In this document: in pieces, positions 3,002-51,663 of the stretch
Layout of the letters: every line of letters begins with the position of its first letter
Numbering within the stretch: position 1 is the first letter of the stretch
Assembly: GCF_000011105.1 (NCBI RefSeq)
Contig: NC_000961.1
Location: 730,662 to 794,661 of the forward strand
Direction of reading: 5' to 3'
DNA length: 64,000 nt
Origin: Pyrococcus horikoshii OT3
GTDB taxonomy: Archaea; Methanobacteriota_B; Thermococci; Thermococcales; Thermococcaceae
The notes under the pieces: model-generated
The model's input: the letters and a program-made list of their open reading frames with translations, nothing else
Database searches by the model: none
What the model was told of the DNA's origin: nothing
Program-made: the position numbers and the translations under genes

Positions 3002-3023
3002 TAACTAGAAGAAAAGGGTAGGA

Positions 3024-3494
3024 TTATCTTTTGAGACATTCGCTTTCCTTTTCTTCTAATTCTATTATCTTCTTAAGGACGCATTCCAAGGTTGAGAGGT
3101 CTGAAAGAATATCTTTAAAGCGAGATTTTTCATCTTCATTAGAATTCTCGGAAAGCTTAATTACTATCTCCTTTAGGGGCTTTATTTCCCTTTCAAGGAT
3201 TTCCTTTGGTTGCTGAAGAAACTTCTCCAGAAATGCGGGAACAGCATAGAAGTATTTAGTCTTTTTCTCCTTAGTATAGGTGACAAGATATTCCCTAGAT
3301 AACTTTGAAAGGGCCATTGAAACTGAAGACCTACTAAGACCTGTTATTTTTGTAAGTTCAGATATTGTAAGAGGTTTACTACTTAAAAGAAGAATTGCAT
3401 ATATTTTTCCCCCAGTCCTGTCGTATCCCCATCTTTCCATCAACCTCTCAACAAGTTCTATAAACTTCCTCTCCTCCTGCTTCATCCTCATCAT
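3024..3494 (-). CDS. GbsR/MarR-like winged-helix transcriptional regulator
   Basis: A 156-residue protein with an N-terminal winged helix-turn-helix. Residues about 25-90 include LLSSKPLTISELTKITGLSRSSVSMALSKL followed by a basic wing (TKEKKTKYFYAVP). The C-terminal helices are rich in Glu and Lys and probably mediate dimerisation. GbsR-type proteins sense small molecules and repress neighbouring transport genes. Two adjacent ATGs (3494 and 3491) follow a GGGGGT site, so the exact start is unsure. It is convergent with the ACR3-like gene and lies near two promoters that carry TGACATAT palindromes, which makes it the obvious candidate local regulator. Confidence 0.75.
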   Translation of the reverse strand: MMRMKQEERKFIELVERLMERWGYDRTGGKIYAILLLSSKPLTISELTKITGLSRSSVSMALSKLSREYLVTYTKEKKTKYFYAVPAFLEKFLQQPKEILEREIKPLKEIVIKLSENSNEDEKSRFKDILSDLSTLECVLKKIIELEEKESECLKR

Positions 3495-3563
3495 TTACCC
3501 CCTAAAAATTAAAGCATAAGGATGTATTTTAAAAATTTAATTAAAAGAAAAAAAGAAAATTAC

Positions 3564-3881
3564 TCAAGAGGTCCCATAAGCTATCATTGCTCCACCTATC
3601 AGTGAAATCCATGCACCTATTGTCCAAAAGCCGCCATCGAAGGGCATAGTTATCAAAGCTAGCACCACTATTGTCCACCCAATGGCCTTCTTGTTACTCT
3701 TGTAGTAATAAGCCAGGGCCATAATGGTCAAGCTCAGGATTATCTCTATCCACCCTACTGCTGAAACTCCACCATAGTGCCAGCCGTAGAAGGTTTTGTT
3801 TGCAAGGACTAATATTCCGTCAAGCAATATCAACAGCCCACCAAGGATTGCAGTCCACATTCCACTCTTTGCGGAAACCAT
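3564..3881 (-). CDS. Small four-helix membrane protein
   Basis: A 105-residue, almost wholly hydrophobic protein with four predicted membrane segments joined by short loops (a YYYKSNKKA loop lies near residue 60). I do not recognise a named family. The start at 3881 is preceded by GAGGTGACC. It shares an upstream region with the divergent radical SAM gene, and the palindrome at 3941-3966 lies between the two sets of promoter elements, so the pair may be co-regulated. Its role is unknown. Confidence 0.7.
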   Translation of the reverse strand: MVSAKSGMWTAILGGLLILLDGILVLANKTFYGWHYGGVSAVGWIEIILSLTIMALAYYYKSNKKAIGWTIVVLALITMPFDGGFWTIGAWISLIGGAMIAYGTS

Positions 3882-3940
3882 CTCAGGTCACCTCGATAAT
3901 ACCTCCTCCCCAATACTATTTAAATTTTTCGGATATATTA

Positions 3941-3966
3941 GATATGTCAAAAATATCTGACATATC
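3941..3966. promoter_or_regulatory. Perfect palindrome between divergent promoters
   Basis: Nine-base arms GATATGTCA (3941-3949) and TGACATATC (3958-3966) are perfect inverted repeats with an 8-base spacer. A TATA-like AAAGTTTAT (3976-3984) faces the radical SAM gene and a TTTAAATAG-type box (about 3915-3925, minus strand) faces the small membrane gene. The palindrome lies upstream of both boxes, a position usual for archaeal activators or dual regulators. Confidence 0.6.
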
Positions 3967-4016
3967 TCAACCATAAAGTTTATCACAAGGAACAGAACAA
4001 GCTAAACAGGGGGGTA

Positions 4017-5675
4017 ATGATGACGGAGGACTTCTTAAGTGAGGCCTTGGAGGAACCATTTCCAAAGGCCATGAACACAACGCCCTCATCCTCAAAGAGT
4101 GGAGGGAGTCAAGTAACTACGGCCCTCAAAGCATTCAAGATAATCCTGGGAAATCCATTGGCCAGGGCCCTACTGCGACCAATGCTTAAGAAGTACAAGA
4201 TAAACGGTAGGGAATTACCAGCCTTATACTGGGCCCTTAGCATATATGCAGGGGAAACTATAAAATGTCCTCTAATGTTAAGATTTCAAGCCGATGTCCT
4301 CAAGCTTCTCCTAAAGCTCGGTATAAAGCTAGCCAGAGGAGATGAGGAGGCAGTAAAGGAGGCCTTACTCAGAGATCCCCACATAAGGAGAGGAATATGG
4401 GTAGTATTGGAAGGAATAGCAAAATACGGAGTCACGGTTCCGCAAAAACTAGCAGCTCCCTTCCTAATAGTTTGGAACTTCACGAACATGTGCAACTTCA
4501 GGTGTAAACACTGCTACCAAAGGGCCGATAAGCCACTACCAAGTGAACTTTCACTGGAAGAAAAGCTTATGCTAGTTGATCAGTTAGATAGGGCCGGAGT
4601 AGCTGCCGTAGCCTTAAGCGGTGGAGAACCGACGATACATCCACACTTCTTAAGGATAGTAAAGGAGCTCTCAAGCAGGGGGATACATACCTCAGTAGCA
4701 ACCAACGGGTGGACGTTCGCAGATAAGGAGAAACTTGAGGAAGCCGTAAAAGCCGGACTTAAGTACGTTGAAATCAGCGTTGATTCAGCAAAGCCAGAGA
4801 AGCATGATGAATTCAGGGGAATTCCTGGGGCTTGGGAAAGGGCTATTAAAGCTTTGGAAAATGCTGTTGAGATCGGAGTAAGTCACGGAATGGCCGTAAT
4901 AATGGACAAGGAAACTTACCAGGAAATGGACGACATCCTGGACTTAGCAGAGAGCATTGGGGTAAAGAGGGTTATCTTCTTCAACCTAGTTCCAACTGGA
5001 AGGGCCGAGGATATGGTTAAGGTCGACCTAACACCGGAAGAGAGGGAGGAGTTCTTGAAGGAACTTTATCACCAGATGAAGAAGAGGAAGCTAGAGATCC
5101 TAACGACTGCACCACAGTACGCTAGGGTAACGTTAATTGAATCCCAAGGGAAGAATGTTAGCCCAGCTCACTTCTACGTGGGCCAAAATACTGCCGTGAA
5201 AACACTAGCTGAATTCATAGGTGGGTGCGGTGCTGGAAGAATATACGCGGGTATTGAACCTGACGGGACAGTAGTTCCCTGCGTATTCCTCCCGTTACCT
5301 GTTGGAAATGTGAGAGTTAAACCTTTCAAGGAGATATGGGAAAACAGCAGAATATTTAACCTGCTAAGGGATAGGGATAACTTCACAGGACAGTGTAAGA
5401 AGTGTCCCTACAGGAATATCTGTGGTGGATGTAGAGCTAGGGCTTACCACTACACCCTTGATCTCCTGGGGGATGACCCAGGATGTATAATAAACAAGAG
5501 GGTTTGGGAAGACATAGTTAAGTATGGTAAGCCAAGGGCTTTAAGTGAAGTAAACTGGGTGGATGAAAGCGTCGTCCTCCGTGTCCCAATACTTAACATC
5601 CCAAGGTACTACAGGGCCGTAGAGGAAGTTGGTGAAAAGTTAATTCAAAAGGAAGGTGAAAAAGTTCATGCTTGA
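4017..5675 (+). CDS. Radical SAM/SPASM enzyme with extra N-terminal domain
   Basis: A 552-residue protein. The radical SAM cluster motif CNFRCKHC has its first cysteine at residue 159, and SGGEPTIHP follows near 205 (SAM-binding GGE). A SPASM-type C-terminal region binds extra Fe-S clusters, with cysteines in GGCGAG (about 403), VVPCVF (about 422), and CKKCPYRNICGGC (460-472). Residues 1-140 are a helical extension that I do not recognise, rich in Ala and Leu. SPASM enzymes modify peptides or build cofactors such as haem d1, PQQ or tungstopterin-linked products; the substrate here cannot be read from sequence. No obvious small substrate peptide lies immediately beside it. The start follows a GGGGGGT ribosome site. 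Confidence 0.85.
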   Translation: MMTEDFLSEALEEPFPKAMNTTPSSSKSGGSQVTTALKAFKIILGNPLARALLRPMLKKYKINGRELPALYWALSIYAGETIKCPLMLRFQADVLKLLLKLGIKLARGDEEAVKEALLRDPHIRRGIWVVLEGIAKYGVTVPQKLAAPFLIVWNFTNMCNFRCKHCYQRADKPLPSELSLEEKLMLVDQLDRAGVAAVALSGGEPTIHPHFLRIVKELSSRGIHTSVATNGWTFADKEKLEEAVKAGLKYVEISVDSAKPEKHDEFRGIPGAWERAIKALENAVEIGVSHGMAVIMDKETYQEMDDILDLAESIGVKRVIFFNLVPTGRAEDMVKVDLTPEEREEFLKELYHQMKKRKLEILTTAPQYARVTLIESQGKNVSPAHFYVGQNTAVKTLAEFIGGCGAGRIYAGIEPDGTVVPCVFLPLPVGNVRVKPFKEIWENSRIFNLLRDRDNFTGQCKKCPYRNICGGCRARAYHYTLDLLGDDPGCIINKRVWEDIVKYGKPRALSEVNWVDESVVLRVPILNIPRYYRAVEEVGEKLIQKEGEKVHA

Positions 5676-5695
5676 GAGTGTTAAAATTTTCAAGT

Positions 5696-5701
5696 TTTTT
5701 A
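5696..5701 (+). terminator. Oligo-T run after radical SAM gene
   Basis: A T6 run about 20 bases after the stop codon of the radical SAM gene, preceded by AT-rich sequence. This is the expected archaeal terminator form, with no strong hairpin. Confidence 0.35.
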
Positions 5702-5871
5702 CAATCTTCCTTTAATCCATTAATATACTCTAAGTAGTAAAAATTGCATCTTTTATACTACCTTCAATCGTATTTAATATTTGTTTTAGATAAGCCACAT
5801 TCTTTATCCATTTTTCTTATTACGATATAACGTGATAATCGGGAAAAGGGGCTTAATTTACCCTCTCTTTG

Positions 5872-5941
5872 ATGTTCATTTTTATACATTACTTTAGATA
5901 TAAGGCTGATTATATCTAAAGTAATGTATAAAAATGAACAT
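5872..5941. repeat. 31-bp perfect inverted repeat (8-base loop)
   Basis: Arm 5872-5902 starts ATGTTCATTTTTATACATTA, and arm 5911-5941 is its exact reverse complement, ending AAAATGAACAT. The loop is AGGCTGAT. Just outside, CTTT and AAAG continue the match after a one-base bulge. A perfect 31-bp stem in a gene-poor stretch is far longer than a terminator needs to be. It could be a miniature mobile element, a replication or recombination site, or a double-stranded RNA source. Confidence 0.9.
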
Positions 5942-6334
5942 AAAGAAGTCCAAAAATTTGGAATAAAGCATATGGGTTTATAGCTGGAGACCAATCTTCC
6001 GTTTGGAGAAGTCCTAATATAAGAAGATGTGTAAATAGGTTTTTCTTAAACGTTACTGAAAACCTGAAAAATGGTACTTTAAGGAAAGCAATAAGCCTAC
6101 AGCTGAGAGATCCTCCACTTCTAAGCTCTGTAGACTAATAGACAAGTTTTCTAAAGAAATGTAGTTGCAAAATAGGCAAATTCTACCTAAGAAATAGTAG
6201 GATAAAGGCAAACAAGTTAAATATCGTTTTGAATCATAGCCGCTATCCAGTATATCACTCCATATGTCCAGATCAAGGGAACTCTTAATAAACTTAAGCT
6301 CCAACCTCTTTATATGTCTTATAAGGAAAAGAGC

Positions 6335-6664
6335 GTGAGAATAGCTGTGTATGGAACTTTAAGAAAAGGAAAACCGTTACACTGGTACCTCAAAGGAGCT
6401 AAATTCCTGGGCGAGGACTGGATCGAGGGGTATCAGCTATATTTTGAGTATTTACCCTATGCCGTCAAGGGAAAAGGAAAGCTCAAGGTTGAGGTTTACG
6501 AAGTTGACAAGGAAACATTTGAAAGAATTAACGAGATTGAAATAGGAACCGGGTACAGATTAGTTGAGGTAAGCACTAAGTTTGGCAAGGCTTTCTTGTG
6601 GGAGTGGGGGAGTAAACCTAGAGGAAAAAGGATAAAAAGTGGTGATTTCGATGAGATTAGATGA
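6335..6664 (+). CDS. Gamma-glutamylcyclotransferase-fold (AIG2-like) protein
   Basis: A 109-residue protein with the GGCT/AIG2 signature VYGTLRKGKP at the N-terminus (phosphate or substrate loop) and the acidic residue in KVEVYEVDKETFERINEIE. The fold is established for cyclotransferases that release 5-oxoproline from gamma-glutamyl amines, but many archaeal members have no proven substrate. A longer frame starts at ATG 6314, but that ATG sits inside a probable TATA box (CTTTATATG, 6309-6316). Transcription would then begin near 6333, so I prefer the GTG at 6335 as a leaderless start. Confidence 0.8.
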   Translation: MRIAVYGTLRKGKPLHWYLKGAKFLGEDWIEGYQLYFEYLPYAVKGKGKLKVEVYEVDKETFERINEIEIGTGYRLVEVSTKFGKAFLWEWGSKPRGKRIKSGDFDEIR

Positions 6665-6796
6665 GTATCGATGAGGCGCGTGAGTTTATGGGTACTACAG
6701 CTTTCAGTGTAGGAAACTAGTATCACACTCACTTGAAGATAACATAACAGCTTGACAGCCTGGTACTCAGTCCCCATTAAAATTTTTAATCTCTTT

Positions 6797-7350
6797 CTAA
6801 AACATCTTCAAAAGCTTTTCACACCCATATGGTGCTGGTGGTACATAACTCTTTTTTTGTGGAATTGAGAGTAGCCTCCTTGCTAACGGCCACTCTCTTC
6901 CGTCAATTTGCTTTACCATTTTTTCAGCCTCTTCTGGCTTTAGATTTCCTTCAATAAAGTCAAGCGCTATCCTGAGGGCGTAAGCATCTGTGTAATAATC
7001 TCCCGTCATCTCCATAATCCTGGTAATACCATCATCATACAAGGAGATATCGTCAAATTCATGTTGAGTTGAGTAATGCAAGCAAATTGAAGTGACCATG
7101 CATTTAACAGCTTCTTTTTTTCATTCCCAAAGAGGCATAGGTTGGTCCCAAATTATGCAAGATAAGTCCCCTCTCTTCAGGAGTTTTTGCATACTTTAGA
7201 GCTTTTTAAGTATTGGTAACGCCTTTTGGAAGCGGTCAATCTCGTAGTAATGAGTTCCCAGGTTATTAAGTGTTATTGAGTGATACTCTGGAATAACTCC
7301 TAATTTTATTGCTTTTTCTTCGAGCTCAACGGCAAGTGAAGGGTTTGAAT
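6797..7350 (-). pseudogene. TPR-repeat protein, frameshifted relic
   Basis: Read on the minus strand, the stretch from about 7350 down carries tetratricopeptide-like helices: LAVELEEKAIKLG, then YHSITLNNLGTHYYEIDRF, then ALKYAKTPEERGLILHNLGP. At least two frame changes separate these pieces from the 100-codon open tail 6797-7099 (ending PYGCEKLLKMF). TPR domains mediate protein-protein contacts. The N-terminus is missing, so the gene is broken and probably silent. The lower part could be translated alone from the ATG at 7099, but its start is inside the former coding sequence. Confidence 0.65.
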
Positions 7351-7372
7351 GTTATACATAAAGTATAATACC

Positions 7373-7860
7373 ATGCCAATAACTTTTGTAGATAGGGAGA
7401 GTGAACTTAAAGAGTTAGAAAACTCGCCTTCTAAGAGAATTTCAAAAGATAAAAAGAACCTTCTTCTTTATATTCCCCGAGGCAATAAAAGGAGAGGAGA
7501 TTCAAATGAAAAAATTTAAGTATACAGGGGCAGATTTTCTTGGGATGAATTCATTAGAAAGTTAAAACGGATAACTGTTTTGACCTTCTAAAGTATTTAG
7601 CTGAGAAAGTTGATGACTGTCCCATAGTCCTTAATGAATTTACATAGGCAGCAAAATATTAAGTGAAAGAGTGTGGGATAGTATTCTAAGCATGATGTAG
7701 GATGGGAGGCCCTAAAAGTTCTTCAAGAGGTTGAGGAGAAGAATAAAAAAAGTTAATTTTAGTGGAAAAATTAATCTAAGGCCTCGTAGGAAGAAACGTG
7801 GAGAAAAGGAAAGAGTCAGGAAAGAGGGTTACTTAGTGTAGGATTTGGGGAATCCCTTGG
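7373..7860 (+). pseudogene. Archaeal ATPase relic, deleted and frameshifted
   Basis: The first codons read MPITFVDRESELKELE, the usual beginning of the archaeal AAA ATPase (PF01637-type) family, followed by a KDKKNLLLYIP strand. The Walker A segment is lost. Later pieces match LLKYLAEKVDDC and the tail EALKVLQEVEEKNKK ... RKEGYLV, in order, when compared with the intact copy at 22473. Several stops and frame changes make it non-functional. It is the first of a series of decayed copies of this family in the window. Confidence 0.7.
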
Positions 7861-7948
7861 AGGCCGCTAGAAACAGTAAATGTGGATAGCTGTAATGCTG
7901 GGCTATTTGAAATCAACGGTAAAACTTATTAACTAACAAAACATACTT

Positions 7949-9324
7949 ATGAGTATGATACTCACGAGTAAGTTTGTAGACAGAGAGAGGGAGTTAAACT
8001 TCCTAAGAGAACATTATCATTCCGGAAAGGCCGAACTGATAGTTATTTACGGCCGAAGAAGGATCGGAAAAACATACCTCCTACGAAAATTCCTTGAGGA
8101 AACTAATGGAATATACCTCCTTGCAGAAGAGAACGAGACAAACTTGGAAGATTTCTCCTTAAGACTGGCAGACTACTTCAAGGATCCCTTTCTGAAAGAA
8201 AACCCCATTAGAACTTGGGGGCTTTCTTCACGTATCTAGCTGGAAAGAGTACTAAAAGATTAGTAGTAGTTATAGATGGCGTTCAATATCTTGTTAGAGC
8301 TGAGAAAGGATTCCTCAGCACCCTTCAAAAGTACTGGGATCTATACTTGTCATCAACAAAGATAATGCTCATACTCTGCGGTTCACTTGTTTCCTTTATG
8401 GAGGGCATTCTTTCCGGAAAATCCCCAATATACGGAAGAAGAACGGGAACTTGGAAGGTAGAAGAAATGTCATTTTTTGACGTGCTAAAGTTTCATCCAA
8501 TTGATATAGAGACAGCTATAAAAATATACGGTGTTTTTGGTGGAGTTCCACAGTATTGGGTAGACTATGATCCTGGGAAAGATTTCTGGGAAAATATAAA
8601 GGATCTAGTCCTATCCAAAGGTGCGAAATACTATGATGAACCTAAGTATTTACTTAAGGAGGAGTTAAGGGATGTCTCAAGATACTTCTCAATATTAAGG
8701 GCAATATCACTTGGATACTCACGCTTTGGTCAAATAGCAGACGCGGCAAGGATCGAAACAAAAAGTCTCGGGAAATATCTCAATGTTTTGGAGGAAATGG
8801 GATATATAAGAGAGGAGAAGCCCATTGTTGGAAGAGGCAAAACAGTTTATAAGATAAATGAGCACTTTTTCAATTTCTGGTTCCGCTTCGTCTTTCCCAG
8901 GAGAAGTGAGATAGAAATGGGGTTCGATGTCGTTGAGGAGATAAAGAAGGAGTTTAACAACTACCTTGGTCCTGTGTTTGAGGAGATATCTCGTCAGTTT
9001 CTTATAGAAATGAACAAGAGGAAAAAGCTCCCGTTTAGGTTTACTAAGATCGGTAGGTGGTGGTACAAGGGTGAGGAGATTGACTTAGTTGCTTTGAATG
9101 AAGATGAGAAGAAAGCCCTCTTTATAGAAGTCAAGTGGAAAAATCTTGAGAGAAAAGAGGCATATAAAATTTTAAAAGACCTAAAAAGAAAAGCAGAACT
9201 TACTGGATTGCACGACTGGAACAAGGCCTATGGAATAATAGCAAAAAGCATCATGGAAAAAGAGGAGTTAAGAGAAGAAGGCTTTTTAGCCTGGGATTTA
9301 AGAGATTTTGAATTAATTAACTAA
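7949..9324 (+). pseudogene. Archaeal AAA ATPase with nuclease-like C-domain, one frameshift
   Basis: Two overlapping frames, 7949-8239 and 8215-9324, join into one protein of about 455 residues. The first carries Walker A (GRRRIGKT, near residue 33). The second carries the Walker B strand LVVVIDGVQYLV, the sensor CGSLVSFM, a winged-helix region, and a C-terminal PD-(D/E)XK-like segment (KGEEIDLVALNED ... FIEVKWKN). One missing base in or near the G run at 8217-8221 breaks the frame. Related copies have DE at Walker B; here the glutamate is glycine, which should cripple hydrolysis. The family is abundant in hyperthermophilic archaea, and its role is mostly unknown. The start may be ATG 7949 or 7955. 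Confidence 0.75.
9043..9140 (+). repeat. 98-bp tract shared with a second ATPase copy
   Basis: This stretch matches 20427-20524 at all but two bases (mismatches in GAGAAG/GAGGAG and GTC/GTG), while flanking DNA of the two ATPase genes diverges clearly. It encodes the nuclease-like core KIGRWWYKGEEIDLVALNED. Recent gene conversion or strong DNA-level constraint would explain it. Confidence 0.85.
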
Positions 9325-9656
9325 ATTAATGAGCAGGTTAACCTGAAACTGCATGAGGGTTTAAAGTCTATACAGAAATCCTTATCCACACTTTATCTCA
9401 CGGTGGTGGTAGTAGAGGATCTTGCCAAAAGTTCGGTAATATTGAGTTAAAGGAATGCACCCTAAAGCTTAGGGCATTACGATTGCATCCTTCTACCCCC
9501 CACTATTAATGGTCTCCAGGATTTGCCAATAAATAGGGATATCGAGCCATTAAGTGTTATGATGTTGCTTTGTTCCAAATTTCCTTTAGGGTTCCTGGTA
9601 CAGATTTTAAAATATAAATAAGATGAAAAATGTTGGAAAAAGCTTCTTGAAAGATC
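9325..9656. other. Gene-free spacer
   Basis: About 330 bases between convergent genes. I see no gene. A small perfect hairpin CCCTAA-AGC-TTAGGG lies at 9460-9474. Short in-frame runs (for example around 9538-9610) read like protein but have no start or family match, so this is probably degraded coding DNA. Confidence 0.4.
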
Positions 9657-10340
9657 TTAACCTATTGGAAAGAACCTAAGCTCTGGGTAAACTGTATAGT
9701 ACCATGACTTTAGATTGTACTCAACAAACACGCTCCTTATCACCGTTAATTTTCTTTTAATTTCACTCCCCTTAACATCCACTCCGAATTTAAAGAGGTT
9801 AAGGGCAAAGCTGTTCACGATTTCTGTGATGTTTTCCGGGAATGCTTTAAAGTTAAAGGTGATTATGATGTTGTTATTCTTACCCCCTCCCAAAACCCTA
9901 ATAAGGCCTGGGAGGAGCATGACAAGCTCTCCTGGGTACCTTACCCCGAAGATATCCAAGCCTAAAACTAGGAATAGGGTGTTATTCTTTGTTCCTAAGT
10001 TCGTTTTAATTCTCCCAACGATGAGTTCCGGATCTTTAGTTTGGATGAGAAGTTCTTGACCTAGATTCTCTTCAAAGAAAGAGACTACTGAGATTAACTT
10101 AGCACCCTTTTTGAATATCTCATCGGCATCTTCGTACACGGACTCCAAGTACCTTATAATTGAAGCGTAAGCATCGCTGAAGGATATTATAACGAACTCC
10201 TTATACTCTGGTTTTAGCGATTTTATCACATGATAGAGTACGCTCTCAATGTCGCTACCTATTTCATGGTTGAAAATCGTTGGGGTAACCCTTTTAGAAG
10301 ACTCAACAATTAACTCCAGCGGATTCACGTTACTCACCAT
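9657..10340 (-). CDS. Protein of unknown function in KaiC operon
   Basis: A 227-residue soluble protein predicted as alternating helices and strands. Hydrophobic strands (KEFVIISFSDAY, NTLFLVLGLDIFGVRYP, NNNIIITFNFKAF) occur in the order of a RecA/KaiC-like core, but there is no Walker A glycine loop. It overlaps the 99-residue gene upstream by 11 bases, and that gene overlaps KaiC, so the three form one operon. I infer a non-catalytic partner or output protein of the KaiC-like ATPase. It has a weak overall likeness to the DUF257-type protein at 38608 (same strand pattern); this is unproven. Confidence 0.7.
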   Translation of the reverse strand: MVSNVNPLELIVESSKRVTPTIFNHEIGSDIESVLYHVIKSLKPEYKEFVIISFSDAYASIIRYLESVYEDADEIFKKGAKLISVVSFFEENLGQELLIQTKDPELIVGRIKTNLGTKNNTLFLVLGLDIFGVRYPGELVMLLPGLIRVLGGGKNNNIIITFNFKAFPENITEIVNSFALNLFKFGVDVKGSEIKRKLTVIRSVFVEYNLKSWYYTVYPELRFFPIG

Positions 10341-43321: not shown

Positions 43322-44290
43322 TCAGTAATCCATTTTAACGAATCTCATATATGATAGCCCTATAAATAACATGGATGCTATGGTTAACACCAGGATATTC
43401 TCCCATGCCAATTGTAGGCTTTCTAATATTGACCTATCCTCGACGATGGATTCTTCATATGCTAAGGCCGATATCACTTCACTTATCTGAGGCTTTCCGC
43501 CGAAGATCATTCTAATTATTTCCTGATAATGGTAGTTTGGTGAGATATACAGGATTCCTTCCGTAGTTTTTACGAGTTCGTTCAGCCATTCCTGATAGGA
43601 TGGATCTTGGATTATTAACTCCTGAAGCTCTTCTTCGGTAAGATTTGATGCATCCGCTGGAATGCTTGGGATTGGTGGTAAACCAACGACGGCAAGTGCA
43701 ATAACGCTCGCAATTATTGGTAGGACAAAGCTGAGGAATGCGAAGATAAAAATCCCCATTACAATGGCATTTTTGGGCTTCTTTATAATAGTGGAGATCA
43801 ACATTCCTAAGCTGAAGAAGCACAAGGCGTATAGAAGACTGAAGGGAAGTGTCGTTAGGAACATGACTACATCGTCCTTATTTGGAGTAACCCCTAAGAG
43901 TAAGGCGAATGCTATCGTTAAAATGTAGAATAAGCCTAAAGATGCTCCAAGAATTAGAGCACCTCCCAAGAACTTTCCGAGAAGTATTTGATCCCTATAA
44001 ATTGGCTTTGAGGCCATTATCCTTAGCGTTCCACGCTCTTTTTCTCCATTTATTGTTGTAGCCCCAAGGAGAATTCCTAGTAAAGCTACTGAGTAATTGA
44101 AGGCATTGGAGAAGCTTGAGAGAAAGAGCATTTGGAAAGGCGTTTTGTATAAGCTTGCGCTTACTCCAAGTCTTTTTAAGTTATAAGTCATTCCCAGGGA
44201 GATTATTGTAAAAAGGATTATCATTACTTGAAATCTTCTCGTCCTAATGCCAACTTCAAAATCCTTCATTCCTACATTGATAACCTTCAC
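43322..44290 (-). CDS. ABC-2 type permease, no adjacent ATPase
   Basis: A 322-residue membrane protein with six or more hydrophobic helices. The motif INGEKERGTLRIMASKPIYRDQILLGK near residue 80 is the conserved cytosolic segment of NosY/NatB-type ABC-2 permeases. A long extracytoplasmic loop between helices four and five holds NLTEEELQELI. No ATPase gene is nearby: TFB lies downstream and a small-peptide cluster lies upstream in the other direction. It could work with the ATPase of another locus, or export products of the cluster next door; the latter is speculation. Confidence 0.85.
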   Translation of the reverse strand: MKVINVGMKDFEVGIRTRRFQVMIILFTIISLGMTYNLKRLGVSASLYKTPFQMLFLSSFSNAFNYSVALLGILLGATTINGEKERGTLRIMASKPIYRDQILLGKFLGGALILGASLGLFYILTIAFALLLGVTPNKDDVVMFLTTLPFSLLYALCFFSLGMLISTIIKKPKNAIVMGIFIFAFLSFVLPIIASVIALAVVGLPPIPSIPADASNLTEEELQELIIQDPSYQEWLNELVKTTEGILYISPNYHYQEIIRMIFGGKPQISEVISALAYEESIVEDRSILESLQLAWENILVLTIASMLFIGLSYMRFVKMDY

Positions 44291-44462: not shown

Positions 44463-44708
44463 ATGTGGAGGAAAGCTTTAGTATTAGGATTAGTATTGAT
44501 GGCAATTGGAATGGTGGTAGGAGGTGCTACTGGTGACAGCTATTTAACTTATTACATGGCCAAAAACGGAGCTTCCCCAGAAGCGACGCTGGTGACAGAT
44601 TTAGGACTAGGAACAGCAGGTTTAATTTGGTCAACAGCTTTTGGAATAGCCTCTGCAGGCTTGGGATTTGCAGTAGGACTTGCATGGATGGTTGGGCAAG
44701 CTCTGTGA
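44463..44708 (+). CDS. 81-residue glycine-rich hydrophobic peptide, possible circular-bacteriocin-like precursor
   Basis: It starts at ATG 44463 after a strong AGGAGGGG; a longer frame from 44400 is unlikely. Residues 1-26 (MWRKALVLGLVLMAIGMVV and following) resemble a leader or membrane anchor. The rest, from about residue 27, has Gly/Ala-rich amphipathic helices (DLGLGTAGLIWSTAFGIAS, then AGLGFAVGLAWMVG) similar in texture to circular bacteriocins. It heads a run of tiny membrane-protein genes that includes a SpoIIM/DUF95 protein, a combination known from circular bacteriocin loci. Precursor identity is inferred; no homologue search was possible. Confidence 0.55.
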   Translation: MWRKALVLGLVLMAIGMVVGGATGDSYLTYYMAKNGASPEATLVTDLGLGTAGLIWSTAFGIASAGLGFAVGLAWMVGQAL

Positions 44709-44752
44709 TTTAAATTTTTAACATTTTTACAATTGCATAGGAGGTGTGTAGT

Positions 44753-45118
44753 ATGGGTGCTGTGGAGAGGCGTTTGTTGTGGATTGGTGGTGTTGTGGCA
44801 TTGTTGTCGTTGATTTATGTTGTTTTTTCAGTTTCGGCAGTTAATTTGAGGCATGTCGGTGTCATGCTGGTGTTCTTTGGCGTTGCAGGGTTTTCCTTGT
44901 ATGGGGCGTTTAAGGTTTACAGAGAGTCTAAGATTAGGTGGTTGTTGTTTGGTATGGGGTTTATAATTGCTTCAGTTGCCGTTTCCCAGCTTACGATAAA
45001 GTTTGACGATCCAATTAGCGTCATAGTTGCAGGCTTAATAAGCCTCCTCACAATCTCCCTAATAGAAATCATAAAAAACACAAACGCGATTATCAAAAAC
45101 TGGAATTATGGCAAGTAA
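44753..45118 (+). CDS. Four-helix small membrane protein in peptide cluster
   Basis: A 121-residue protein with four hydrophobic segments (LLWIGGVVALLSLIYVVFSV; HVGVMLVFFGVAGFSLYGAF; WLLFGMGFIIASVAV; ISVIVAGLISLLTISLIEII). The ATG at 44753 follows AGGAGGTG. The N-terminal half uses TTG/GTG-rich codons (GGTGGTGTTGTGGCATTGTT), unlike most neighbours. It may be an immunity or processing membrane protein if the cluster makes a peptide, but no family is recognised. Confidence 0.6.
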   Translation: MGAVERRLLWIGGVVALLSLIYVVFSVSAVNLRHVGVMLVFFGVAGFSLYGAFKVYRESKIRWLLFGMGFIIASVAVSQLTIKFDDPISVIVAGLISLLTISLIEIIKNTNAIIKNWNYGK

Positions 45119-45264
45119 CTGGTATTATAGTGAGGAGAAATTAAATGTATGCCTAGTTTGGATCCGTTCCCGCTATCAGTTGCGAGTGGTGTGATTGCCC
45201 TCCCACTCCCGCCCACATTAGGGCTTTGACGGAAGGTTGTCACTCTCAGACCGAGATAATATAA

Positions 45265-45389
45265 AAAGAAGGAACTGCTACTGGATGGTTGGGAGGAAAA
45301 GTTATTGACTACGTAAATAAGTGGGCTAAGAGAAGGTAGGTATATTTGGAGGTCTTGTAGGCTTGGTGGGGGCTGCGATTGGATATTAA
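45265..45389 (+). pseudogene. Degenerate second glycine-rich peptide
   Basis: In one frame KEGTATGWLGGKVIDYVNKW then AKRR stops, and in the next frame VGIFGGLVGLVGAAIGY ends at a TAA (45387-45389). Joined, these read as one glycine-zipper peptide, again bacteriocin-like. There is no start codon left in the first frame, so it is broken. Bases 45119-45264 upstream hold a 26-codon chance-like frame (MPSLDPFPLSVASGVIAL) and GC-rich sequence with no clear gene. Confidence 0.4.
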
Positions 45390-45404
45390 GGAGGTGAGTC
45401 TGAA

Positions 45405-45625
45405 ATGGATGCTTTAAGGAGGCTTGCTTGGTTCCTTGTTCCTTTTTTATGTTGATGCTAGTTGCGAGGTTAACGGAATATGCTGTTTTTGGTACTGTGG
45501 CAAGTATCACTCTTAGAGCCTTCTTGGCAATTACCAAACCTTCGTGGAGGAATATTATAGCGGTTATGGGGCTTATATTAGGACTTTTCATAGGTTACTT
45601 TCTCCTACCAAAATTCTTGCAGTGA
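45405..45625 (+). CDS. Small two-helix membrane protein, frameshifted at a T run
   Basis: ATG 45405, after GGAGGTGAG, reads MDALRRLAWFLVPFLC then stops. One missing T in the TTTTTT run (45443-45448) would continue it as FMLMLVARLTEYAVFGTVAS and then FLAITKPSWRN to a stop at 45625, giving about 73 residues with two or three helices. It lies between peptide-like and SpoIIM genes. Family unknown. Confidence 0.5.
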
Positions 45626-45633
45626 GGGATAAA

Positions 45634-46175
45634 ATGGCGAATCTTAGGTCTGCTTTTCCTCTTATCTGTCTGTCCTTATGTTTACAACTAGTATTGTCCT
45701 TGGTTTTTTCTCGGCTTTAACTCATGATTATTCCGCTTATTTTGGCTTTGATCCTTTTGATAATTCTAATCCAGGATTTTTGTTCTTCTTCAGACATAAT
45801 GTAAAGGTCGCTCTTATGCTCTGGTCAGGCGCTTTAACCTTCGGGGGAACAACTCTACTAAATTTAGCATTTAACGGCATGATCCTAGGCTCAGCCGTTA
45901 AAACCACCGCAGAGCAGATAGGGTTGATAAAAACCATACTCCTCATACTCCCTCACGGTGTTTTTGAAATCCCTGCTATAATCATTGCAGGAGCGGCAGG
46001 CTTTAAAATTCCTTATGAATTGTTGAGGTTTGCTTTAGGCAGGAAGGAGGAGATAATCACGGAAGAGGACGCTAAAGAATTCTTCAAACTTATAGCAATT
46101 TCAATAGTCTTAATCTTCATTGCTGCCTTAATTGAAAGCACGGTAACGGTTAAAATAGCTGAGAGCTTAAGGTGA
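45634..46175 (+). CDS. SpoIIM/DUF95 family membrane protein, early frameshift
   Basis: The open frame from 45678 encodes the SpoIIM core: LMLWSGALTFGG, LLNLAFNGMILGSAVKT, ILLILPHGVFEIPAIIIAGA near residue 90, and the closing AALIESTVTVKIAESLR. The proper start is probably ATG 45634 after GAGGG, which reads MANLRSAF before a shift near the T4 run at about 45653-45656. Proteins of this family bend or remodel membranes in sporulation and are encoded in circular-bacteriocin loci (DUF95 component of AS-48-type clusters). In archaea their role is unknown. About five helices are predicted. Confidence 0.8.
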
Positions 46176-46229
46176 TTGAAATATAGAAGGATTTGGGGTT
46201 AGGATTGATGTTTGTAGGGAGGTAATTAG

Positions 46230-46379
46230 ATGAGCAGAAATAGCGAAGGCATAGCAAGTTTCATTTATAAAACTGGGAAAGCATTCTCATATCAAACCGT
46301 GATGTTCCTTGGTACATTTATTGTAGAATTGCCCATAATCTCACTCCTTGGTGCTGCTGTTTGGCTACAGATTAAATAA
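46230..46379 (+). CDS. 49-residue single-helix membrane peptide
   Basis: It starts at ATG 46230, eight bases after AGGGAGGT, and ends at TAA 46377-46379. The sequence MSRNSEGIASFIYKTGKAF is followed by a hydrophobic segment VMFLGTFIVELPIISLLGAAVW. A strong ribosome site and clean ends in the middle of a small-gene cluster support it as a real gene too short for usual calling. Function unknown. Confidence 0.55.
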   Translation: MSRNSEGIASFIYKTGKAFSYQTVMFLGTFIVELPIISLLGAAVWLQIK

Positions 46380-46532
46380 AGATGACAACATATTCAGTCG
46401 TGGGAGCAAATATTAAACTTTTTATAATAACAATGTATAGATTATTATAGTGGGGAGGAGTAAGATTAAAAGGTTTGAGAATTCGAAGCTGAAAAGGAAG
46501 TACTAGCTTTACTTAATAAGGAGGGAATTAAC

Positions 46533-46795
46533 ATGGAAATCACCAAGAGGGACGTGTTTTGGGTTTTATTGTTGCGATTTGGATATACAATGTCTTCGCT
46601 TTGCTTGACGTCTTAGGAATAACAAGAATCAAAGGGTTGATGTTCTATGCATTGGCCACAATACCGCCGCTCTTCCTTTACTTCTACCTTATGGCTTCAC
46701 CACCAGAGCCAGACATAAAGATGATAGCAAAATTTGGGGGAGCATCAGTGGCAGTTCTCTCAATCCTGGGAGGATTGCATATACTCCTAAAGTAA
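46533..46795 (+). CDS. Small membrane protein, frameshifted at a T run
   Basis: ATG 46533, after AAGGAGGG, reads MEITKRDVF and then needs one extra T near 46557-46560 to join GFIVAIWIYNVFALLDVLG and later helices ending GGLHILLK. The joined protein would be about 87 residues with three helices. It stands just before the 46810 gene with a 14-base gap, in the same orientation as the rest of the cluster. Confidence 0.55.
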
Positions 46796-46809
46796 AGGAG
46801 GGAAGAACG

Positions 46810-47079
46810 ATGAGTAGTATAACTTGGTTCCTGTTACTCGCTGGCGCGGGATTTATAGCAATTCAAGAGGATTACAAAACCCTCCCCGTAGCTTTTCTAA
46901 CAGCGCTTATATACTGGGCTGTGTCCTATTTCAGGTTTGGTTCCAAGTTTTCATTATTCCCTATCGTAATGTTATTTGTAGGAACAATACTTTACCTGAA
47001 TTCAAAAAATAGAAAAGTTATGAAGATTGCTGGCATATCAGAGATTATAGCATCCCTAGCATTCTTAATCCTACCTTAG
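46810..47079 (+). CDS. Small three-helix membrane protein
   Basis: An 89-residue protein with hydrophobic segments ITWFLLLAGAGFIAI, LPVAFLTALIYWAVSYF, LFPIVMLFVGTILYL and an SEIIASLAFLILP tail. It starts at ATG 46810 after AAAGGAGGGAAG. No family is recognised. It is part of a run of same-strand small membrane genes separated by 12-70 bases. Confidence 0.6.
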   Translation: MSSITWFLLLAGAGFIAIQEDYKTLPVAFLTALIYWAVSYFRFGSKFSLFPIVMLFVGTILYLNSKNRKVMKIAGISEIIASLAFLILP

Positions 47080-47091
47080 AGGGGATAGAAC

Positions 47092-47454
47092 ATGGTGAAG
47101 AAACTCATAATTGCAGTAGTTGTAGGGCTCTTAATGGCTCTTGCAATTAATATGACTTTGAACATATTTCCAACACTCTCACTTAAATTCCTCGGGTTGA
47201 GTTTCCTCTTCGTGCTGTTCTGGTTAGAGATACTTGAAGATATAGCTGAAAATAGGAAGAATAATCTAAAGAAGCGGGCAAGAATTGTTGCAGGTGCAAT
47301 AATTATGGCACTAGTGACTGCTCTTACGATTGCAGTAGCCTTTAACGATGTACTTCCAATACCTTCGACTAGGGCCTTCTTTGGAGTAACCTTCGCCTTT
47401 ACTTTATTCTACTTAACCCTTGGGGAAATAATTGAGTTCCAGTGGTTCAGATAA
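47092..47454 (+). CDS. Duplicated-unit membrane protein
   Basis: A 120-residue protein made of two similar halves. The first has VGLLMALAINMTLNIFPTLS, the second MALVTALTIAVAFNDVLPIP, each followed by a helix ending FLFVLFWLEI or FAFTLFYLTLGEIIEF. The second half matches the separate 70-residue gene at 47523. A basic linker (ENRKNNLKKRARI) joins the halves. It starts after GAGGGGAT. Function unknown; possibly a membrane immunity or transport protein. Confidence 0.65.
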   Translation: MVKKLIIAVVVGLLMALAINMTLNIFPTLSLKFLGLSFLFVLFWLEILEDIAENRKNNLKKRARIVAGAIIMALVTALTIAVAFNDVLPIPSTRAFFGVTFAFTLFYLTLGEIIEFQWFR

Positions 47455-47522
47455 TGGAGAAAAATTTCACATTAATGTAAACCTTAAAAATATCAAAAAT
47501 TTCTCAGGTTAAGGGGGTCAAC

Positions 47523-47735
47523 ATGAGGGAACCTTTGCGGAAGTACTTTGGATTGATTATTGTAGGATTCATAATGGGTTTAGGAATGGCAATCAGTGTA
47601 ACCCTTGTATTTAATGACATCCTTCCTATCAGATCAATCATGGACTTTCTCGGAGCAACACTTACTTTCACACTGATATACGCAGAGTTCGGATACATAT
47701 TTGAGTTCCTCTTACCAAAGGCTAGAAATGTCTGA
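47523..47735 (+). CDS. Single-unit paralogue of the 47092 protein
   Basis: A 70-residue protein, MREPLRKYFGLIIVGFIMGL and so on, whose motif VFNDILPIRS and tail FTLIYAEFGYIFEF parallel the second half of the 47092 protein. A preceding GGGGGTC is a ribosome site. Probably two helices. It ends the cluster before the McrBC-like genes. Confidence 0.6.
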   Translation: MREPLRKYFGLIIVGFIMGLGMAISVTLVFNDILPIRSIMDFLGATLTFTLIYAEFGYIFEFLLPKARNV

Positions 47736-47813: not shown

Positions 47814-49316
47814 ATGGAGAAATTTAAACTGGAAGGGGAATACAAAGTTAAAGATAACCTTTATTATTTCTTCGAATGGTCTGAATATCGGATAATAGGG
47901 AAGGAGAAATTCAAAATCAGGATTGGAAATCAAGATGTCAAAGTGGAAAGATACGGAGACTTGCACGTTGCCAGATTCTCCTTTAAAAACTATATAGGGA
48001 AGACAAAGATAGAGATACTGACCAAAGATAAAACCATTGTTCTAGAGGGGGAGGTCCTCTCGAAAAAAGTTCCCAGAATATATGGAATCAAAGAAGATAA
48101 CCTGGAGACAATCATAAAGGCCCACAGAAAGTTTTATGAAGCGTTAGTTAAAGAGCTATGGAAGATTTCTTCCACGTTACCCTTTTCAGTTAATGCACCC
48201 ACTAGCTTTGGAACTGTAGAATCGAATAGACCGATGAATGAGCTCTTTGCCTACTACTACCTCCGTTCAAACAGGGAGAGAATATTGGGAGCCTTTGAAA
48301 CCTTGATGAAGTTCATTAAAAGGAAGCTCGTGGTTAAGGAGGAGCTCGTTGATGTTTGGGAAGCTGATGATGTAAATCCAGATGCAATACTCTGGATGAC
48401 TCAGCACCCCGAGTATTTAACCCCTGGGCGAAAGTTCAGCCCTACAAAGGTTTTAGCCTTTAGAAAGTATGAAAGCTTCGACACCCCAGAGAATCGCTTT
48501 GCTAAGTACTTCCTGGATCTCCTCATCGAGTGGGGAGAAAGAGCGCAAAGAAACGTGGGTGGTGTGAGGGATATAATTGAGGATTTAAGATTCCTTAGGA
48601 GCGATCCCCTATGGGAAGAAGTTGGGAAGATGAAGATATTCCCCTATACATCGCAAACTCTTCTCAAGGGAGAAGGGTACAGGGAATTACTTGGGCTTTA
48701 CCAGGAATTCGTTGTGAGGATGCCATTCTTTGCTAAGCTTAGGGAAGCAATTGATAACCGGGATATTGCAAGGCTCTACGAGTACTGGGTTTTCTTCAAG
48801 CTCGTGAAAGAACTCGAGAAAATTTTAGGTGAGAAAAATGTCAGAATAACTATAGAGCCTGCTAGAGGACTTTCAGAGGAAGGAAACGTCTATGCGGAGT
48901 TTAAAGGAAAATGGAGACTTTACTACAATAGGAAGTTAAGGCCCAGGAAGTTCAGCTATTCGGTATCCTTAAAGCCAGACTTCTCCCTCTTTAGGGAAGG
49001 TAAGGTAGTTGGTGTGTTTGACGCAAAGTTCAAGCTCGAGCTTGTCGATGTTGATAGGTTTGCTGACGAAGACAAGGAAATGGAGGAGAATCCGAGCATT
49101 GAAACGTGGGCAAAGCTTGAAGATATATACAAGATGCATACGTATAGGGATGCTTTAAGATGCAAATTTGCCGTTGTTCTTTATCCTGGGAGTAAAAGCG
49201 TGTTCTTCGATGCTAAAAGAGGTAAAATTGATGGGGTATCTTTGGCTGAAATTATCGGAAAAGAGGGGATAGGCTACCTGAGTTTTATTCCTGGGGGTGA
49301 AGAGGATGAATACTGA
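47814..49316 (+). CDS. DUF2357/McrC-like nuclease subunit
   Basis: A 500-residue protein. Residues 1-90 look like a DUF2357-type beta domain. A helical middle follows, with PENRFAKYFLDLLIEW near 220. The C-terminus has a PD-(D/E)XK core: SLKPDFSLFREGKVVGVFDAKFK near 385-405, with Asp ... Asp-x-Lys, and HTYRDALRCKFAVVLYPG near 445. It overlaps the AAA+ gene that follows. The pair matches McrBC-like and LlaJI-like restriction modules in which this protein cuts modified or foreign DNA and the AAA+ partner supplies energy. The specificity is unknown. Confidence 0.8.
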   Translation: MEKFKLEGEYKVKDNLYYFFEWSEYRIIGKEKFKIRIGNQDVKVERYGDLHVARFSFKNYIGKTKIEILTKDKTIVLEGEVLSKKVPRIYGIKEDNLETIIKAHRKFYEALVKELWKISSTLPFSVNAPTSFGTVESNRPMNELFAYYYLRSNRERILGAFETLMKFIKRKLVVKEELVDVWEADDVNPDAILWMTQHPEYLTPGRKFSPTKVLAFRKYESFDTPENRFAKYFLDLLIEWGERAQRNVGGVRDIIEDLRFLRSDPLWEEVGKMKIFPYTSQTLLKGEGYRELLGLYQEFVVRMPFFAKLREAIDNRDIARLYEYWVFFKLVKELEKILGEKNVRITIEPARGLSEEGNVYAEFKGKWRLYYNRKLRPRKFSYSVSLKPDFSLFREGKVVGVFDAKFKLELVDVDRFADEDKEMEENPSIETWAKLEDIYKMHTYRDALRCKFAVVLYPGSKSVFFDAKRGKIDGVSLAEIIGKEGIGYLSFIPGGEEDEY

Positions 49317-51663
49317 AAGGATTATCGAAATCGTAAAGGAAATGAAAAAATATTCAATAGAGTTCGAGAAAGTTATTGAGAAAGTTGAGGAATTCAGAAG
49401 GAGAGTAGAAGAAGCGTGGAAAAAAGATAAGAAGGACGTTATCAGATACCTAGGAGAATTTGAACGATATATTAGTGGTAATGAATTATCAAAGGTACTT
49501 TACTTAAAACATGACAATAGGAGGCTTATAGAATACCTGGGAGATGAGGATTTTAGGGGACTCCTTGAAGAAGTTTCCAAAATAACCGATTACGAAGAGT
49601 TTTCTAGGAGAAAAGGTAACATCGCAAGATACCTCGAAAATATAAAGAAAAAGAAGAATGAAAAGAAGCTTATAGACTTGGGACCGGCTATAATAACATC
49701 ATGGATGACGATCTTTAACCCTAAGATGTTTATGCCATTAGGGAACTGGCTTAATCCTATTTTAGAGGAGCTGTCACTTGAGAAAAATTGGGGATTTGGA
49801 GGATGGGATTCAAATAAAATAATTAGAGTTTATGAGGAGCTTAATGAAGAGAATTTCAGAAAGGAGCTAGAGGAGCAGGGAATTAAAACGCTCCTTGAGG
49901 TGGCCTATTACCTTAAAAAATACATAGATAAGGGTGAAAATGAATACGAAATTAATAATTTAAAGCCCAAGAATGAACTAAAAAATGACCTTAGAAGTTA
50001 CTTAGAAGCGAGTGGTTACAAATATTCACAATCCCAGATTTCTCAATTTTATGTTGCACTAAAAACTAAGGGATTCGTAATTCTATCTGGTTTGACGGGA
50101 AGTGGAAAGACAAAGATAGCTCAAGAGCTTGGCGAATTATTGGATCTTCCTCAAGTAATGTCAGCTTCTGGTCCAAATACGGTAGCAAAAAGAGAAATCA
50201 AGAGCTTACAAGAAACAATAAATAGGCATGGATTTGCAGTTTACGGGTGGCATCCCCCAGGAAAGATTAGTAAAATTAAACCTCCTTTCATCTTCTGGGT
50301 TTATGACAGTGATGAAAACGACGAATACTACAAAAAGGTACCATACGGGATCGTGGTGAGAGACGTTATAGTCGGCAAGAATATCCCAGAAGAGTGGAGA
50401 AAAGGGATTGAATGGGCTAAGGAGGTGTATGGATATGACATTGAAAGGTACATCAACGAGCACGATGTATTCCTCAAAGTAGTAGAAGTAATTCCCTGTG
50501 GCCTTGAAATCTCTGAATTTATTGACGTTGAGGAAGGGAGAAATCTAACCACCAAAGATGCCCAAAGAATTCGGAGTGGATTTATATACGTTAAAGCCCC
50601 AGAGGAGTGCAGGAAATGGAGTAGGCCATATATTTTCCTCTCGGTTCGCCCAGACTGGCGCGATTCAAAGCTCCTCCTTGGATACTACAATCCAATAACG
50701 GGAAAGTACAACAAAACGAAACTTCTAGATTTCATAATGCAAGCTATAGAGGATTACAAAAATAATGGAGAGAATGCATTGCCTTACATTATAATCCTCG
50801 ACGAGATGAACCTTGCACACGTCGAGTACTACTTTGCCGACTTCCTGAGCGTTCTAGAAAGTGGAAGGGATGAAAAAGGGTTCACAAGGGAAAGCATAAA
50901 GCTCCACGATGTCGATGAAGTGGAAGAGAAGCAAGGAGTACCGAAGGAGATAAAGTTACCTCCCAACCTTTACATAGTTGGGACAGTAAACATAGATGAG
51001 ACAACTTACATGTTCAGCCCGAAGGTTCTTGATAGGGCCTTTGTAATAGAATTCCATGAAGTTGACCTAGAGAACTATCCTCCCAGAGAAGAGAAACTCG
51101 ACGAAGATCATGTGGTTGCATTGAGGAATTTAATCCTCGAGGATCTCAGAAGGGATGGAAAGTTCCTGAACTATTCAAAGCATGAAATAAATGAAGCCGT
51201 TAGAGAGCTGGATTTATCAAAGGTTAGGATACTCAACGAAGTTTTAGAACCTTATGATCTCCACTTCGGCTACCGTGTCGTTGATGAAATAGCTCTATTC
51301 CTAAAGAATGCCAAGGAAAGCCGGGAAAAAGGTATTGTAAGCTTTGAGAATGAGGACGAGATCTTTGACCTTGCGTTGCTCATGAAAGTCCTTCCAAAGT
51401 TCCACGGTAATAGGAGAAAGCTAGAAAAACCCCTTCTCTTGGTTCTTAAGTTTGCTAAGACTGGAGAAATTAGAGAAGAAGACGCTGAAAAGGGAGAGGA
51501 AGAACTGTGGAAAGAGATATTTGGAGCATCAGAGGTCGGAGATACCAAAGCTGTAATAAAGGAAATGAAAAGAGTTAAAGATTACAAATACAAACATACT
51601 GGTAAGAAAGCTCTCCGCATGCTTAGGCAACTTTACGAGGTGGGCTTTGCAAGCTTCAGCTAA
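49306..51663 (+). CDS. McrB-like AAA+ NTPase
   Basis: A 785-residue protein. The N-terminal 230 residues are helical and charged. The AAA+ domain has Walker A GLTGSGKTKIAQEL near 265, Walker B IILDEMNLAHVEYYF near 500, and VGTVNIDETTYMFSPKVLDRAF near 560, where McrB has a conserved NTxD-type motif. A 100-residue insert between Walker A and B (about 300-430) may hold a PUA/EVE-like DNA-reading domain, but I cannot confirm that. It overlaps the nuclease gene by 11 bases; the ATG at 49306 is preferred over GTG 49297. Together they form a two-component restriction system. Confidence 0.82.
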   Translation: MNTERIIEIVKEMKKYSIEFEKVIEKVEEFRRRVEEAWKKDKKDVIRYLGEFERYISGNELSKVLYLKHDNRRLIEYLGDEDFRGLLEEVSKITDYEEFSRRKGNIARYLENIKKKKNEKKLIDLGPAIITSWMTIFNPKMFMPLGNWLNPILEELSLEKNWGFGGWDSNKIIRVYEELNEENFRKELEEQGIKTLLEVAYYLKKYIDKGENEYEINNLKPKNELKNDLRSYLEASGYKYSQSQISQFYVALKTKGFVILSGLTGSGKTKIAQELGELLDLPQVMSASGPNTVAKREIKSLQETINRHGFAVYGWHPPGKISKIKPPFIFWVYDSDENDEYYKKVPYGIVVRDVIVGKNIPEEWRKGIEWAKEVYGYDIERYINEHDVFLKVVEVIPCGLEISEFIDVEEGRNLTTKDAQRIRSGFIYVKAPEECRKWSRPYIFLSVRPDWRDSKLLLGYYNPITGKYNKTKLLDFIMQAIEDYKNNGENALPYIIILDEMNLAHVEYYFADFLSVLESGRDEKGFTRESIKLHDVDEVEEKQGVPKEIKLPPNLYIVGTVNIDETTYMFSPKVLDRAFVIEFHEVDLENYPPREEKLDEDHVVALRNLILEDLRRDGKFLNYSKHEINEAVRELDLSKVRILNEVLEPYDLHFGYRVVDEIALFLKNAKESREKGIVSFENEDEIFDLALLMKVLPKFHGNRRKLEKPLLLVLKFAKTGEIREEDAEKGEEELWKEIFGASEVGDTKAVIKEMKRVKDYKYKHTGKKALRMLRQLYEVGFASFS

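Follow-up and report, generated by a model that had tools for sequence, protein, structure and literature searches.

The window analyzed here, a 64,000-nucleotide stretch of the Pyrococcus horikoshii OT3 genome, contains at 44463-47735 on the plus strand a run of small hydrophobic open reading frames (ORFs) that includes one intact gene for a small peptide precursor and one gene of the SpoIIM (DUF95) family. Comparison with relatives suggests that this locus is probably a partly decayed member of a bacteriocin-like ("archaeocin") system specific to the Thermococcaceae. In the mechanism we propose, a conserved leader would bring the peptide to both the membrane and SpoIIM before being removed, with cleavage near a GG(A) motif, after which SpoIIM and an ABC-2 exporter would carry out the maturation and export of the variable core. 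The exported core would attack the membranes of competing strains, and a small membrane protein encoded beside it, the partner, would shield the producer from its own core. A preliminary description of the window had proposed a circular-peptide system composed of a peptide, a SpoIIM protein, immunity proteins, and an ABC exporter. Conserved synteny, linkage between cores and partners, arrays of orphan partners, and the co-occurrence of permease and precursors all argue strongly for this combination, whereas a head-to-tail circular bacteriocin was not shown.

Precursors, partners, and their linkage

The run is headed, as first described, by an intact gene for an 81-residue Gly/Ala-rich peptide (44463..44708). 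Relatives of this peptide were detected in 18 of 94 Thermococcaceae genomes, many of them aligning only over the first 22-28 residues, with 57-92% identity. Position-specific scanning of the loci around them identified 35 leader-bearing precursors in approximately 18 genomes. The leader comprises 21 residues (MWRKAL[VA]LGLVLMAIG[MV]VVGG), is nearly invariant, positively charged, and hydrophobic, and ends in GG(A); positions M1, W2, K4, L6, G9, L12, and G16 are identical in the 24 aligned copies. The cores that follow it are 57-99 residues long, variable, hydrophobic, and mostly Gly/Ala-rich, with a C-terminal residue that is usually small or hydrophobic, and some of them, including that of the window, are net acidic. 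Between genera, about 33-57% of the synonymous codons of the leader differ versus 11-30% of its residues. Thus, selection has acted on the protein, and recent gene conversion is rejected as the source of leader conservation. Neither a profile search across the 115 genomes of the phylum nor a pattern scan of every GTDB species detected the family outside Thermococci, and none of its members was found in the viral contigs searched, which leads us to reject a viral or widespread origin. As a separate observation, a conserved 45-base block (AACTTTTTATTGTAGTTGCTTAGTTATAATCATTGGTGGTAATCA) lies 5' of nearly every precursor in genus g4 (L064, L065, L067, L068, L076, L078, L080, and L081), which suggests that the cassettes of that genus are co-regulated.

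The usual order of a cassette, in which the precursor is followed by one small membrane protein and then by SpoIIM, is repeated across five genera, so that the synteny of peptide and SpoIIM gene expected at the outset is indeed conserved in relatives. Because peptide, partners, SpoIIM, and permease are similarly arranged in other Thermococcaceae, the arrangement found in the window is not due to chance. The partners are 31-173 amino acids (aa) long and belong to several mutually unrelated families. Across 32 cassettes, 27 pairs from different genomes had similar partners, and the cores were also similar in 25 of them (permutation mean 3.7, maximum 12). Among the partner-similar pairs that crossed genera, this held for 19 out of 19 (permutation mean 2.8, maximum 11, p ≤ 0.0002), and for 18 out of 19 at a stricter cut. 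These comparisons showed that each core type is paired with its own small membrane partner. SpoIIM subtypes were also split by core class: among the cassettes with a readable subtype, subtype I accompanied one set of cores in all ten cases and subtype II accompanied the others in all eleven. A small SpoIIM tree was set aside on account of its long branches and of stand-alone sequences, some of which were in the wrong frame. Finally, an ATPase-like gene of 340-430 aa (cluster c6) was observed 3' of the cassette SpoIIM in L064, L065, L067, L068, L080, and L081.

These patterns bear on a different role for the loci, namely a membrane remodeling or vesicle-forming complex made of SpoIIM and small membrane proteins, as proposed in 2015 for COG1300 families including arCOG01996 (PMC5898192). 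We disfavor this role as most improbable. A housekeeping function leaves unexplained the hypervariable cores, the core-specific partners, the patchy distribution (18 of 94 genomes), the decay, and the orphan arrays. Moreover, nearly all genomes carry a separate SpoIIM paralogue, that of the cassettes being a dedicated one.

Eight cassettes had a broken or truncated precursor next to a full-length partner. Another 33 partner-type genes had no leader peptide upstream and were nearly all open, a count that is blind to frameshifts located 5' of the aligned part. A tandem array beside the exporter operon of one locus (L091) comprises about 11 small membrane genes, of which at least seven belong to known partner types, and contains neither a precursor nor a SpoIIM gene. 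Among immunity genes, the usual pattern is for the antidote to be kept while the toxin is lost. From this combination of toxin loss and partner retention we infer that the partners are likely immunity proteins. Those at 45405-47735 in the window may be a retained collection of immunity genes directed at peptides whose production the strain has lost. In three cassettes from two genera (L065:10010-10204, L078:8656-8850, and L071:7540-7737), the partner combines a membrane anchor with a sequence that nearly duplicates the helix of its own core (~65% identity over 32 residues; z ~15 versus shuffles), which suggests protection by joining the toxin assembly and blocking it. More tentatively, and with somewhat less than even confidence, we envisage hyperthermophile-specific peptide weapons, processed by SpoIIM and possibly cyclized, that combine an invariant leader with interchangeable cores and their own immunity proteins, in which strains would collect non-self immunity genes and helix-copy partners would act as just described.

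Polymorphic toxin and bacteriocin systems are organized around a conserved N-terminal targeting part, a variable toxic part, cognate immunity proteins, and arrays of orphan immunity genes. The Thermococcaceae system resembles polymorphic toxin systems in its conserved N-terminal part, variable part, cognate partners, and orphan arrays. However, it employs tiny membrane peptides and SpoIIM instead of large toxins and bears no sequence relation to them. Cognate pairs, frequent decay, and McrBC-like neighbors would also fit a toxin-antitoxin or abortive antiviral defense acting at the membrane, in which the peptide would kill its own infected cell and the partner would be the antitoxin, and such loci were labeled as membrane-associated defense in a 2014 survey (PMC4158269). 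We nonetheless regard this reading as improbable, since an export-type leader, an ABC-2 permease in trans, and toxin-free arrays of multiple specificities better suit peptides that are released, and since the cassette genes had no match in PADLOC. A pherotype system, with cores as pheromones and partners as cognate receptors or transducers, would likewise display a conserved leader and a variable core linked to a variable membrane protein. Such peptide signaling is, in our judgment, very improbable: the partners are only 31-173 aa long, those scanned had no recognized signaling domain, the cassettes have no conserved regulator, and receptor arrays without a signal of their own are less expected.

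The permease and export

The gene divergent from the window precursor (43322..44290, minus strand) encodes an ABC-2 permease of the ABC2_membrane_2 family (PF12679, E 2.7e-37). Its orthologues (56-68% identity) were found in 15 of the 94 genomes, all of them precursor carriers, and in none of the 76 precursor-free genomes (p 9e-15 by hypergeometric test, p 6e-8 when stratified by genus). The precursor carriers lacking this permease are G004 and G008, both with odd or damaged precursors, and G085, a genome of 61% completeness. In G073, G074, G075, G078, and others the permease is distant from the cassettes, and the association therefore exceeds mere neighborhood.

A complete operon consisting of the permease, an ATPase, a 730-aa protein, and a second permease is present, divergent from the precursor, in L070, L072, L074, L079, and L093. 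Co-occurrence with the precursors is limited to the window-type permease. The 730-aa protein and the generic permease were ruled out as system-specific components, as the former occurs in 61 of the 94 genomes. The suggestion that the upstream permease completes the set in the window finds support in its identity and its co-occurrence with precursors, but no ATPase lies beside the permease or the cassette in the window. Because an ATPase sharing 78% identity with its counterpart in the exporter operons is encoded at 1233097 of the P. horikoshii genome, where it adjoins a homologue of the 730-aa protein, the window permease could work in trans with it. In double-glycine bacteriocins, an ABC exporter with a C39 peptidase removes the GG leader; here, GG is present in most leaders, and no C39-peptidase gene was recognized in the window cluster, this gene not having been sought in every genome.

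Relation to circular bacteriocins and to published loci

SpoIIM proteins occur in almost every bacterial circular-bacteriocin cluster and represent a shared hallmark of these clusters (PMC5695211, PMC7132975, PMC8659200). The DUF95 protein of leucocyclicin Q is required for secretion (PMC7132975, PMC5695211), and the clusters accepted in the literature include an ATP-binding protein (PMC8534725). Like the clusters of AS-48, uberolysin, circularin A, leucocyclicin Q, and cerecyclin, the Thermococcaceae system comprises a small hydrophobic precursor, SpoIIM, small membrane or immunity proteins, and an ABC transporter. Unlike them, it has a long near-invariant leader common to all cores, cores of 57-99 aa that match no family, and partner arrays; it lacks YIP1 and an ATPase encoded in the cassette, and it is archaeal and restricted to the Thermococcaceae.

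A circular bacteriocin proper, in which a complex containing SpoIIM would release the core from its leader and link the two ends of the core, would be a special case of the explanation that we prefer. Besides the SpoIIM hallmark, the common layout of precursor, small hydrophobic protein, and SpoIIM points in this direction, as do the complete ABC operons of relatives and the Priestia circular-bacteriocin cluster, recovered when plasmids were searched with the window SpoIIM and holding the closest bacterial plasmid SpoIIM (33% identical). On the other hand, the profile search proposed in the preliminary description returned nothing: neither PF09221, TIGR03651, nor any other circular-bacteriocin model in Pfam or NCBIfam matched any of 24 precursors at E ≤ 1, even though both named models matched the Priestia plasmid peptides used as a positive control. 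Known circular bacteriocins are 58-70 aa long and mostly cationic (PMC10028692), with which the cores, often longer (57-99 aa) and in some cases acidic, overlap only partially, and the window cassette has no adjacent ATPase. On balance, we consider a circular bacteriocin proper unlikely. Head-to-tail cyclization of the core, in the manner of the bacterial SpoIIM-dependent circular bacteriocins, may perhaps occur, at a likelihood that we place a little below one half. The system probably works like a SpoIIM-dependent bacteriocin, and its membership among the circular bacteriocins is not established.

The missing family matches and the partial overlap of the cores also weigh against the bacteriocin-like interpretation in general, and several other points do so as well. 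Whole-cassette transfer could partly be the source of the linkage between cores and partners, and the association of the permease with the precursors is correlative. The activity of the system, its peptide product, and its processing are predictions from the genes. In addition, apparent frameshifts in SpoIIM and two partners mean that the window copy may be inactive. The structure models are also of low confidence: two AlphaFold2 models of precursors were all-helical (pLDDT 58 and 56; pTM 0.28 and 0.30), and Foldseek searches with these models matched no PDB fold at E ≤ 0.001. Neither SpoIIM nor the precursor profile retrieved a relative in sequence searches of the PDB, and scans of the small proteins against Pfam, NCBIfam, and PADLOC yielded no match beyond SpoIIM and ABC-2.

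Loci of this kind have been noted before. In Archaeoglobi, Pyrococci, and methanogens, Makarova and colleagues observed gene clusters that combine arCOG01996 (DUF95/COG1300) with small membrane proteins and that, in some Pyrococci, lie close to restriction genes. They proposed a role in membrane-associated defense (PMC4158269) and later one in membrane remodeling (PMC5898192). These "dark matter" loci, or arCOG01996-arCOG02054-arCOG09673 cassettes, are very likely the same loci as ours, matched by description: both combine DUF95 with small variable membrane proteins and lie beside restriction genes in Pyrococci. As far as the accessible parts of those two publications extend, they describe no leader peptides, core-partner linkage, permease co-occurrence, or immunity arrays. 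No link between Thermococcales SpoIIM loci and bacteriocins was found in the literature searched, which did not include a survey of antimicrobial peptides in archaea published in mBio in 2019. VARTIG modules (PMC8416519) are similarly hypervariable, limited to Thermococcales, equipped with small membrane proteins, and proposed to serve in conflict, but they are centered on a large immunoglobulin-domain protein, with no mention of SpoIIM.

The biochemical role of SpoIIM in the production of circular bacteriocins is unsolved, and hardly any peptide weapons are known from hyperthermophilic archaea. With its single leader, dozens of cores, matched partners, and dedicated permease, a family of this kind would offer a tractable set in the genetically workable Thermococcales with which to probe the role of SpoIIM, the specificity of immunity, and competition among vent archaea. 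If our interpretation is true, a function would be assigned to genes listed as archaeal "dark matter". Separately, the search with the window SpoIIM also reached plasmid pMETHO01 of Methanomethylovorans hollandica (L095), where two near-identical hydrophobic peptides of 66 aa, an 80-aa membrane protein, and SpoIIM, with YIP1 and ABC genes nearby, are encoded at 2227-9965. This looks like a methanogen circular-bacteriocin-type cluster, and its SpoIIM scored best against the cassette type of Thermococcales.

Layout of the locus in Pyrococcus horikoshii

The plus-strand run in the window contains one intact precursor gene, two decayed precursors, one SpoIIM gene, and six small membrane genes, with at least five types of membrane partner for the single intact precursor. 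Intact precursor A carries the leader MWRKALVLGLVLMAIGMVVGG at ~44463-44525, followed by a 60-aa core of the SYLTYYMAK type. It is followed by partner A (44744..45118, starting at 44744 or 44753; 121-124 aa), which also follows the same core type in L075 and is the probable immunity protein for core A. Decayed precursor B (45265..45389) is frameshifted and has lost its leader, and its core remnant (GTATGWLGGKVIDYVNKWAKRR // VGIFGGLVGLVGAAIGY) is similar to the core of L070:8166 and to L067/L068. Partner B (45405..45625; c19 family) is 76% identical to an L070 partner located after an NLTYR-type precursor.

The SpoIIM gene (45634..46175), reported from the start as part of the run, encodes a subtype I protein with an FGFDPF motif (PF01944, E 1.1e-30). 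Its close relatives are found in cassettes, and it is distinct from the stand-alone paralogue G000:1437736. Decayed precursor C (46181..46379) consists of a degenerate leader followed by AEIAKA*QVSFI...AFSYQTVMFLGTF and includes a 49-codon ORF at 46230. It was aligned by eye, in mixed frames, with the precursor L069:10219-10506, and the 46230 ORF matched L069 by BLAST. Both decayed precursors were recognized from their resemblance to relatives in L070 and L069 that are intact or nearly so. Partner C (46533..46795; c5 family) is 86% identical to a partner-family gene of L069. Three orphan partners complete the run, namely D (46810..47079; c63 family), which is 60% identical to the partner after precursor L074:10106, E1 (47092..47454; c8 family), whose relatives are located after WHKTGDW-type precursors, and E2 (47523..47735; c8 family), which shares 60% identity with the partners that accompany the WHKTGDW precursors L073:9144 and L078:11267.

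Relative to their homologues, three genes, namely SpoIIM and the partners at 45405 and 46533, are apparently one T short in a brief run of Ts close to the start. In SpoIIM, the ATG at 45634 is out of frame, and the in-frame ATG is that at 45678. Split or cut SpoIIM genes also occur in G004, G022, G042, and G085. The missing Ts between 45405 and 46560 may reflect decay, phase variation, or sequencing error, and on account of these frameshifts the window copy is possibly non-functional. The preliminary description had counted at least eight genes on the same strand, each with a strong ribosome site. The run of hydrophobic ORFs is real and good sites precede most of them, but eight intact genes are not present: the 49-codon ORF is the tail of a decayed precursor, and the ORFs of 65, 165, and 78 codons are apparently 5'-truncated when compared with relatives. 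Judged by these sequences, the system is degraded in this strain of P. horikoshii and conserved as a family. Directly 3' of the run, positions 47814-51663 hold two genes, the second of which was identified as PDC-M26A by PADLOC. The pair looks like a restriction pair of the McrC/McrB type, in agreement with the restriction genes published beside such loci in Pyrococci.

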